A stretch of DNA of 49,113 nucleotides from Desulfatirhabdium butyrativorans DSM 18734 (lineage in GTDB: Bacteria; Desulfobacterota; Desulfobacteria; Desulfobacterales; Desulfatirhabdiaceae). Position numbers and translations under genes: made by a program. Shown here piece after piece: positions 40,104-46,335 of this stretch. Under the pieces are notes generated by a model. That model saw nothing but the letters and a program-made list of their open reading frames with translations, was not told the DNA's origin and searched no databases. Positions within the stretch are counted from its first letter, which is position 1. Each line of letters starts with the position of its first letter. The stretch covers positions 1-49,113 of the forward strand of contig NZ_AUCU01000036.1 in assembly GCF_000429925.1 (NCBI RefSeq). Reading direction: 5' to 3'.

Positions 40104-40267
40104 GCATTCGATGCGCCTCGTTATGGGTGAAGAGACGATTCTTCTCCATGATCTGCGTGCTGCGCCGCCGCGTCGAACAGGCGCAGGCTGATTCGGATCG
40201 GGGTGGAGGGGGGGATCCAGTCGCTATTTGCCATAGCTCCGGCAAGCAGCCAAGGAGTCGAAAGAAC

Positions 40268-40963
40268 ATGATTCCACTGGACAAAACATCAACAGATGGA
40301 GAGGTAACCAGAGCGTCCCGCTCTGGTTACCTCTCCGCCTTCGACGAATCAACCCTATCGATTCATCACGGTGAAAACTTACCCCATTGGACGTGCGACA
40401 ACGCGGTATACCACGTCGTGTTTCGTCTGGCCGATGCGGTTCCTCATGCAAAACGGGAAGAGTGGCTGGCGGAAAGAAAACGCATCGAAGACACCGCCAG
40501 AAACCAAAACCGTGATCTAACGGAAGAGGAACGGAAGCGTCTCCAATTCCTGTATTCGGAAAGGATCGAAAAATACCTCGACACCGGACACGGCGCCTGC
40601 CATCTGCGAAGAGCTGAGGTCGCCGAGATGGTCGCCAATGCGATCAGGCATTTTGAAGGAGACCGTTACCGACTGCATGCCTGGTGCGTCATGCCGAACC
40701 ACGTTCATGTCATCGTTGAACCGCTGCCGGACTGGAAACTGTCGGGTATCCTCCATTCGTGGAAATCGTTTACGGCCCACCAGGCCAACCAGATGCTCAA
40801 GCGCTCCGGTGATTTCTGGCAACGTGACGCATACAATCATATTATCCGCAACGAAAAGGAGTATTGGTTTCAAATTCGATATGTCTGGGAAAATCCGGAC
40901 AAAGCGGGATTGAACGACTGGAAATGGCGCTGGATAATAGGCAGCGCGTCTCGGGTAGGGTAG
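40268..40963 (+). CDS. REP-associated tyrosine transposase (RAYT, Y1_Tnp/IS200-like)
   Basis: 231 residues from ATG 40268, the only Met before the conserved domain, after AAGGAGTCGAAAGAAC. NAVYHVVFRLADAVP opens the domain, the HUH metal-binding motif is MPNHVHVIVEP, and GDFWQRDAYNHIIRNEKEY carries the expected catalytic Tyr. RAYTs nick single-stranded REP hairpins and spread them without being part of an IS. The gene is surrounded by palindromes of one type (40298-40336 and 40963-41113), the usual sign of cognate REPs. Oddly, the upstream palindrome lies inside the coding frame, giving an N-terminal extension of about 40 residues. Confidence 0.88.
   Translation: MIPLDKTSTDGEVTRASRSGYLSAFDESTLSIHHGENLPHWTCDNAVYHVVFRLADAVPHAKREEWLAERKRIEDTARNQNRDLTEEERKRLQFLYSERIEKYLDTGHGACHLRRAEVAEMVANAIRHFEGDRYRLHAWCVMPNHVHVIVEPLPDWKLSGILHSWKSFTAHQANQMLKRSGDFWQRDAYNHIIRNEKEYWFQIRYVWENPDKAGLNDWKWRWIIGSASRVG
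40298..40336. repeat. REP palindrome inside the 5' end of the RAYT gene
   Basis: ggagaggtaaccagagcg (40298-40315) and its exact complement (40319-40336) give 18-bp arms around tcc. The inner ccagagcg...cgctctgg matches the palindromes downstream of the gene. It starts 30 bp after the start codon. Confidence 0.95.
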
Positions 40964-41113
40964 CCAGAGCTTCTCGCTGTAGCCAGAGCTTCCAGCTCTG
41001 GTGATAGAACGATTGCCAGAGCGTCTCGCCGTAGCCAGAGCGTCTCGCTCTGGCGATGTATAGGGTCCTGTTATACCAGACCGGGACGGTCTGGCTACGC
41101 CGGATAATCCGGC
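40963..41113. repeat. REP cluster downstream of the RAYT gene (family C)
   Basis: Several units gtagccagagcttctcgctg / ccagagcgtctcgctctgg, then ataccagaccgggacggtct and gccggataatccggc. Two palindromic types are visible: ccagagcg-tct-cgctctgg and ccagacc-gggac-ggtctgg. The last part is repeated almost exactly at 46205-46335. Confidence 0.92.
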
Positions 41114-41231
41114 TGCGGAAATCGCCTTGAAACGGGCGGCAGCGAAAGCCAGGCAGGCGGGTAAAGGTGTTGTGGTGTGGAAGGATGGCCACATCGTCGA
41201 GGAGCGGCAGGACACATCAGCGATCGAGTGA
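41103..41231 (+). pseudogene. 3' fragment of a small gene truncated at the REP cluster
   Basis: From the REP edge an open frame of 42 codons reads NPAAEIALKRAAAKARQAG, then KGVVVWKDGHIVEERQDTS to TGA 41231. This looks like the C-terminus of a small antitoxin-like or unknown protein family (..A..KAR..G.GVVV.KDG.IVEE..). No start codon or upstream coding part remains; the REP element replaces it. It runs 15 bp into the siaD-like gene on the other strand. Confidence 0.5.
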
Positions 41232-46019: not shown

Positions 46020-46160
46020 TCCCATTCCCCGAATGGGACAATAAGTCAATAAATATTTTACTTATCCTATATCTTTTTCCTAACATCAGTGGCTTTTTTG
46101 GGGTATAACTATCTGATTCTTTGTCGATAAAGGTTTTTCGTTCAGACACTATATAGGCAG

Positions 46161-46335
46161 CCAGAGGACCTCGGGTATTCAGAGAATCTCGCTCTGGTCC
46201 TTTTATACCAGACCGAGACGGTCTGGCTACACGAGACGGTCTGGCTACACGAGACGGTCTGGCTACACGGGACGGTCTGGCTACACGGGACGGTCTGGCT
46301 ACACGAGACGGTCTGGCTACGCCGGATAATCCGGC
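46161..46335. repeat. Family C REP cluster with 18-bp tandem array
   Basis: A degenerate ctctgg palindrome (agagaatctcgctctgg) is followed by ccagacc-gagac-ggtctgg (46208-46226) and six contiguous 18-bp units of gagacggtctggctacac (46215-46322; units 4 and 5 begin ggg, the last ends cgc), closing with gccggataatccggc. The start and end are the same as the RAYT-adjacent cluster at 40963-41113, with the internal half-palindrome multiplied. Confidence 0.93.

Follow-up and report, generated by a model that had tools for sequence, protein, structure and literature searches.

Introduction

RAYTs (repetitive extragenic palindromic (REP)-associated tyrosine transposases, also called TnpA_REP) are Y1 transposases of the HUH type which are found in single copy and together with the GTAG-footed REPs on both sides form a REPtron. 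REPs can also lie within genes. The available excerpts of a 2013 survey (PMC3733652) describe REPs that are translated in frame inside genes, including those for tRNA synthetases and repair functions, and in which the GTAG foot often gives a TAG stop codon; the same excerpts cite the Rickettsia palindromic elements (RPE), palindromes that occur in frame in many host proteins, some of which are expressed. According to the accessible parts of Quentin et al. 2018 (PMC6006769), RAYT subclass 2.4 contains REPs inside tnpA_REP genes without loss of the frame as well as “double foot” REPs, and an excerpt of PMC3390384 mentions one RAYT that is located inside an annotated gene, but in a different reading frame than the latter. 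Here, we analysed a RAYT gene and its REPs at positions 40268 to 41113 of contig NZ_AUCU01000036.1 of Desulfatirhabdium butyrativorans DSM 18734 (assembly GCF_000429925.1), the complete 49,113 nucleotides (nt) of which are referred to as the window, and compared the locus with its relatives in other genomes.

Our analysis suggests that a REPtron was inserted into a small host gene and that its RAYT is read from the start codon of the host through the left REP, as a one-sided form of an in-frame lifestyle that is frequent in its clade. We hold this explanation with considerable confidence. The open-access literature that was searched, which is incomplete, with few subscription papers and no bioRxiv, contained no description of complete RAYTs that are embedded in frame in the genes of a host.

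Results

The palindrome in the RAYT frame is probably the left end of the element

The RAYT open reading frame (ORF; 40268..40963, + strand, 231 aa) was assigned based on profile matches and the nearest PDB structure, and its domain proper (40349..40930, +) covers positions 2-195 of a 195-position family model. The first-pass annotation had described a perfect palindrome with 18-bp arms within this frame and related palindromes after the stop codon, and both are indeed present. The palindrome (40298..40336, +) has two arms of 18 nt at 40298-40315 and 40319-40336 that are 100% complementary and enclose a loop of 3 nt. It corresponds to nt +31 to +69 of the ORF, has foot-like sequences on both sides (GTAACC...GGTTAC, the left foot of the element reading GTAA) and is translated as GEVTRASRSGYLS.

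Homology to other RAYTs starts past the palindrome at approximately residue 25, and the preceding sequence varies among the relatives. This is what would be expected if the true start of the RAYT were located downstream and the palindrome remained untranslated, and the excerpts of the 2013 survey likewise caution that REPs at annotated N-termini may be extragenic. The first-pass annotation had named such a start site, or orthologues with the same extension and no palindrome, as evidence that would speak against its proposal. The late onset of homology and the variable leader agree with the objection, whereas the start codons do not: ATG 40268 is the sole ATG, GTG or TTG in the 60 codons ahead of the RAYT domain and is preceded by a ribosome-binding motif, and none of the three codons occurs between palindrome and domain. 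The palindrome is therefore translated, provided that the RAYT uses a usual start codon. With a rare start codon (ATT, CTG) as the way left for it, we regard a downstream start as extremely unlikely. The frame is also open farther upstream, up to ATG 39905 inside the region of the preceding gene.

It had furthermore been proposed that the hairpin lies very close to the ribosome-binding region and could act on the translation of the transposase. A regulatory element under selection, which lowers transposase translation and thereby leads to self-limitation, would fit the stability of the hairpin, since the 39 nt fold as RNA with −34.6 kcal/mol and none of 200 shuffled sequences folded as well, and also its position within the first 25 codons. 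Moreover, a fold of 131 nt (frequency 0.05) pairs bases of the start codon with bases just past the REP, which might allow the hairpin to close a stem across the start codon, and REP hairpins, including those at 5' ends, are discussed as RNA control elements in the excerpts of PMC3733652. Nevertheless, the closeness was overstated: the hairpin begins at +31, beyond the ribosome-binding site, and the AAGGAG motif (40252..40257, +; read from the sequence, 10 nt ahead of the ATG), which probably belongs to a disrupted small host gene, is outside of it. Shorter folds give the same small separate hairpin of the start region with or without the REP, and relatives carry the same kind of REP together with the RAYT hundreds of codons into host genes, where there is no initiation site to act on. 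Symmetry would also be expected of a REP as a transposase substrate. A conserved regulatory function is hence unlikely, although a local effect of the hairpin on this particular mRNA may exist in view of the 131-nt fold, and the palindrome is probably the translated left terminal REP of the element rather than a dedicated regulatory hairpin. As a separate observation, the ribosome-binding motif and the start codon can pair in short folds as a small hairpin of their own (GGAGUCG/UGAUUCC, 40254-40276), while a longer fold differs.

A hairpin of this kind inside a coding frame had been considered unusual. A scan of 84,980 species genomes revealed 69 related loci, and we inspected the 25 top-scoring ones, including the window, for palindromes with arms of at least 7 nt and a loop of 3 nt that are located in the same open frame, at most 250 nt ahead of the domain and downstream of a start codon. 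Such a REP-like palindrome was found in 19 of the 25 loci, the exceptions being L038, L050, L051, L054, L057 and L060, while shuffled controls yielded 0 to 0.15 palindromes per locus. In the clade of the window, RAYT domains are thus as a rule preceded by a translated REP.

The element probably separates the two halves of a small gene

On the right side, the GTAG foot of the first right-end REP (40960..40963, +) provides the stop codon of the RAYT with its TAG (40961-40963). It opens a cluster of REPs (40960..41113, +) with CCAGAGC units at 40964, 40983, 41016 and 41035 and a CCAGACC unit at 41076-41094, in which palindromes are formed at 40983-41001, 41035-41053 and, as CCAGACC..GGTCTGG, at 41076-41094, and which ends with the tail GGCTACGCCGGATAATCCGGC at 41113. 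The last 26 nt (GGTCTGGCTACGCCGGATAATCCGGC, 41088-41113) have a second, identical copy at 46310-46335, where they close a tandem array of REPs that is likewise part of the window. As this tail occurs twice in identical form, it belongs to the repeat and the host part begins at approximately 41114; for the same reason, a start of the host right half at 41103 was discarded. No further copies of the 26 nt were detected in the rest of the window genome with up to 3 mismatches, and REP copies in this genome are few overall. The array itself (46160-46335) consists of 19-nt REP half-units (GGTCTGGCTACACGAGAC...) and shares its tail with the right end of the RAYT element. Three REP cores with a spacing of 61 nt (CCAGAGCGGGACGCTCTGGTTACC; G000:C29:26540-26680, L004-L006) are located on another contig than the single RAYT.

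Directly past the REPtron, positions 41114..41231 (+) encode the C-terminal half of a small protein (AEIALKRAAAKARQAGKGVVVWKDGHIVEERQDTSAIE*), shifted by one base relative to the reading frame of the RAYT. This half shows 74% identity to an intact gene of the same genome (G000:C1:212845-212973; residues 3-41 of the 42-aa query), and a search with the joined flanks of the element retrieved homologues from 9 of the 194 genomes of the order, namely from its own genome and eight others. A Pfam scan assigned no family to this small gene. In an alignment of ten copies, the N-terminus was variable and the C-terminal core was conserved. The REPtron of the window separates this core from the AAGGAG motif, the ATG and the first ten codons (MIPLDKTSTD; 40268..40297, +), which would represent the N-terminus of the host judging from position, start codon and ribosome-binding motif and which now form the start of the RAYT ORF. 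Between ATG 40268 and the host stop at 41229 there are 961 nt, one base off a multiple of three, and the host gene is consequently out of frame on the right side. Landing of the REPtron in a small host gene is the simplest reading of this arrangement, with a well supported right half. The alternative offered by the first-pass annotation, namely a landing of the element at this site and its fixation in frame, is supported by the host half next to the REPtron and the intact paralogue.

Relatives of the RAYT are located in frame inside conserved genes

A model based on 24 aligned rows was used to score the relatives, and 63 loci, including the window, reached at least 150 bits. These loci are the best matches of several searches and not a random sample. 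Copies were considered as embedded if the same frame continued for a minimum of 100 residues upstream, or 50 where the contig ended, and for a minimum of 90 residues downstream. This applied to 27 of the 63 loci, all on the sense strand and open on both sides, with two further ones (L010, L061) being cut by a contig end. In the two alternative frames of these 27 loci, a stop codon was encountered within 60 codons in 48 of 54 left-hand and 39 of 54 right-hand cases, and being open is hence a specific property of the RAYT frame. In embedded loci, this frame passes through the terminal REPs on either side without interruption, and the 35-residue stretches that flank the domain contain more Gly, Ala, Ser and Pro than the domain. 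A 683-aa frame antisense to L076 matched no family.

Profile scans of both flanks were conducted for 19 loci, with L163 and L164 among them although these are outside of the 63. In 14 of the 19, the same NCBIfam model, as listed, matched the left and the right flank, and the order was collinear in all 14. The putative hosts comprise leucyl-tRNA synthetase (LeuRS; L047, L048 and L053, with left/right profile positions of 142-357/369-569, 2-272/301-569 and 143-356/375-842, in no assigned order), FabZ (L058; 4-70/83-140), CarB (L062; 8-408/415-548), IspG (L163; 2-352/467-611), MetH (L164; 450-931/945-1233), isochorismate synthase (L045; 7-165/197-456) and a salicylyl-CoA 5-hydroxylase/oxidoreductase (L059; 1-381/393-751). 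Methylases are a further group, with the BREX protein PglX (L040; 170-277/313-715), a BREX-like methylase (L050; 222-327/532-734, with a weak right match of 3e-5) and three DUF1156 methylases (L063, L064 and L126; 139-296/404-725, 183-227/506-768 and 164-228/484-610, again in no assigned order). Additional hosts were named by eye from the flanks, namely PglX for L037, L038 and L041-L043 and DUF1156 proteins for L008, L124, L127 and L128; L010, L061, L088 and L129 were inspected in the same way.

The LeuRS insertions were followed further. In the genomes of L048 and L047, for which completeness is unstated, the interrupted gene was the only match above the LeuRS cut-off of 548.4 when its pieces in one frame were summed (850.6 and 846.7 bits), and each single piece was below the cut-off alone. 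A query spanning the LeuRS junction matched 36 of 40 genomes from the family of L048's genome and was continuous in 30 of them, which represents the empty site. The junction was split in the remaining six: in the genome of L048 itself and, with 30 to 117 nt between the pieces, in G582, G636, G644, G646 and G647. According to an alignment with 11 empty LeuRS copies, the element in L048 and L053 replaces a short variable loop. The five other split junctions may represent longer loops or REPs without a RAYT. Separately, the LeuRS of L062's genome (G578:C5:36788-39718) was matched as two pieces of the same frame with approximately 80 codons between them, which may reflect another insertion.

This replacement of just a short loop, in a host that is expected to be essential and was found as the only copy, would also be compatible with passengers similar to inteins or introns, which protein splicing, RNA splicing or ribosomal bypassing would eliminate so that the host protein can work. 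However, neither RNA removal nor bypassing would depend on an open frame, and the frame is nonetheless maintained to the left and right of the RAYT, in contrast to the mostly closed alternative frames. Furthermore, no intein or Hint domain was among the matches listed for the window RAYT and the scanned flanks, a search that covered flanks and RAYT and not whole fusions or junction residues. Removal is thus very unlikely in our estimation.

Two samples were evaluated with regard to the length of the surrounding frame. In 395 genomes of the window's phylum (with the best 8 or fewer candidates per genome), all six relatives with E<1e-50, the window excepted, were located in frames of 900 to 1337 residues, while of the 60 weaker matches 6 were surrounded by frames of at least 400 residues, which in one case contained an internal stop (Fisher p 1e-5). 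Similarly, five of five matches above 240 bits in 74 genomes from the family of L048's genome were situated in frames of 874 to 1506 residues, compared to frames of at least 400 for 6 of 73 weaker ones; L172 from this sample has no evident host gene.

Some loci of this collection show a different architecture. L087 and L088 have an N-terminal RAYT-like piece (ELPHL...FVTFRLRDA) after the catalytic part, and in L071 REP-like peptides are located between the N-terminal part and the core. L012 (G003, same family), L140, L141 and L142 belong to a second subfamily of RAYTs, whose N-terminal part is shorter and whose long open frames by eye resemble DNA methylases.

Objections to the embedded reading

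Several observations weigh against in-frame embedding in the clade or against the interpretation of the window. Embedded loci were picked by their open frame, and hence “in frame” is partly built into their count. No single model matched both flanks in five of the 19 scanned loci (L037, scanned with Pfam only and with an unmatched left flank, L044, L049, L087 and L125). For IspG, a second and shorter model (TIGR00612) gives overlapping stretches (1-258/222-356), and for the DUF1156 and BREX-like loci the gap in the profile amounts to 107 to 278 positions, so that the junction is not placed to the residue. The control is weak: it comprises eight non-embedded loci with long ORFs on both sides, of which none had one family on both sides. 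The families on the two sides differed in three of these loci (L046, L090 and L072), and the other five had a family on at most one side; for L097, L074, L039 and L069, the scan covered a single side. Among the controls, the left neighbours in L056, L057, L054, L083 and L072 reach the end of their family profile, as expected when an insertion falls between genes. The window copy, moreover, is in frame on its left side only, and MIPLDKTSTD shows no clear similarity to the variable N-termini of the host homologues, its support being positional.

Finally, many loci originate from metagenome bins, and L048 has a run of N upstream in its LeuRS gene, which could point to assembly or binning artefacts or to decaying pseudogenes. 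Against this, two embedded cases are found in named strains (L037 in Lamprocystis purpurea DSM 4197 and L040 in Halochromatium roseum DSM 18859), and the same LeuRS insertion occurs with divergent sequence in three genomes (L048, L053 and L162). The L048/L053 pair, in addition, has a low pN/pS and no gaps in the RAYT (see below). Artefacts or pseudogenes can hardly be expected to account for the pattern.

Low pN relative to pS and repeated changes of state

In the LeuRS fusions of L048 and L053, the RAYT part shows 158 identical residues out of 194, no gaps and a pN of 0.127 with a pS of 0.74, with many synonymous differences that are near saturation. Four further RAYT pairs gave pN/pS values of 0.023/0.129, 0.102/0.449, 0.148/0.825 and 0.19/0.717, and pN is well below pS in all five pairs. 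A start codon with a ribosome-binding motif within 60 codons was detected in 7 of the 27 embedded and in 18 of 34 other loci, the window included among the latter (Fisher p 0.04). Expression of embedded RAYTs from a start of their own was therefore not retained as an explanation, since such starts are mostly absent, although the separation is not clean.

A tree was calculated from 60 of the 63 cores after three short ones had been dropped. Many of its inner forks are weak. The embedded state changes at least 14 times on this tree, the window not being counted, and the starred set of 10 rows to which the window belongs contains six copies labelled PglX, the LeuRS copy of L047 and two free copies. 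Whole REPtrons may thus repeatedly enter and leave host genes, or may have been captured repeatedly; transposition itself is presumed.

Classification of the window RAYT

The RAYT of the window is a Y1/RAYT-type transposase according to PF01797 (33.6 bits, cut-off 23). It scored 69.8 bits with the NCBIfam RAYT equivalog NF047646, under the cut-off of 80, and 25.5 bits with the IS200/IS605 model NF033573, for which the cut-off is 55. The nearest PDB structure by sequence is TnpA_REP 4er8, and the predicted fold (pLDDT 87) likewise had its best match with 4er8_A (E 8.4e-08), which indicates a Y1 transposase fold. In the predicted structure, two long helices, which we read as likely additions relative to TnpA_REP, separate the first strand from the catalytic part. 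The HUH motif is NHVH (residues 144-147; H145-V-H147 at 40700-40708, +), and the catalytic tyrosine is Y205 (40880-40882, +). Across the 24 aligned rows, Y205, N209 and P210 (Y...NP) as well as the second histidine of the HUH motif are invariant, whereas L040 is devoid of the asparagine and L051, a free copy, of the first histidine. Considering motifs only, NHVH, WQ and Y..NP are roughly compatible with subclass 2.4 or 2.7 as given in the accessible parts of Quentin et al. The window genome (G000) contains a single RAYT copy at E<=0.001 and not the multiple near-identical copies of IS200/IS605-like elements. Classed by motifs, predicted fold and REPs, the protein is a divergent member of the RAYTs despite its NF047646 score. 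Plasmid records yielded four distant matches, none of them informative.

Discussion

The most plausible course of events in the window starts with a REPtron (REP, RAYT, REPs) that would have been inserted in sense orientation approximately ten codons into a small host gene. With the frame kept on the left, the RAYT would be translated from the host start codon through the left REP. On the right side, the GTAG foot would give the TAG stop codon, leaving the C-terminal half of the host out of frame and presumably dead. In the clade, in contrast to this one-sided case, the whole cassette often appears to be free of stop codons and to be embedded in the frame of a host gene. Its terminal REPs would be read as flexible linkers (for example VARASRSG, GFQPMH and HGQDAHAT), and the host protein would contain the RAYT as an internal domain, either in a loop or between domains. 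It may further be assumed that the fused proteins are made and work and that the RAYT acts on its REPs by binding or cleavage of single-stranded REP DNA. The evidence for an in-frame life of the clade inside conserved genes comes from sequences alone.

As a broader picture, the clade may consist of protein-embedded selfish elements, that is, stop-free REP-RAYT-REP cassettes that land in frame in loops or linkers of conserved and even essential proteins and whose expression takes place solely in the form of a domain within their host protein. Their palindromic ends would double as peptide linkers, and they would be shielded, since a frameshift or disruption also breaks the host gene. The window would then represent a one-sided landing in which the host start became the start of the transposase. 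We give this general picture an even chance.

If it holds, several consequences follow. The repeated in-frame entry into conserved genes, with at least 14 changes of state suggested by the tree, would indicate that whole REPtrons move or have been captured repeatedly. Why genomes keep RAYTs is named as an open question in the accessible parts of PMC6006769, and protection by the host gene would be a simple reason for their persistence. The clade would moreover illustrate how a mobile enzyme can turn into an internal domain of a protein that is essential, with no splicing involved. The results also contain a warning for annotation, as some transposase domains seem to be located inside tRNA synthetases and phage-defence methylases, and the proposal is testable in cultured strains.

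Compared to the described REPtrons, the window element is alike in its Y1 HUH transposase with 4er8 as nearest structure, in the GTAG-footed REPs on both sides and in its single copy. It is unlike them in that its closest relatives are mostly located inside host ORFs and that REP copies in its genome are few. Inteins are mobile DNA in frame inside conserved genes. The embedded RAYT loci share this position; however, they show no intein domain among the listed matches and no sign of removal from the protein. The RPE, compared by description as cited in the excerpts of PMC3733652, consist of palindromes only, whereas the clade of the window carries a whole RAYT. The intragenic REPs in the excerpts of the 2013 survey are likewise REPs alone, with the largest regions comprising 43 to 82 residues, while here a whole transposase gene with REPs at both ends is in frame. 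In subclass 2.4, following the accessible text of Quentin et al., REP insertions are generally located between the HuH and Y motifs, whereas the REP of the window lies ahead of the domain and corresponds to the left end of the element. Intragenic REPs, TAG stop codons made by the GTAG foot and REPs in tnpA_REP genes were thus known before, and what the present comparison appears to add is whole RAYTs in frame in host genes.
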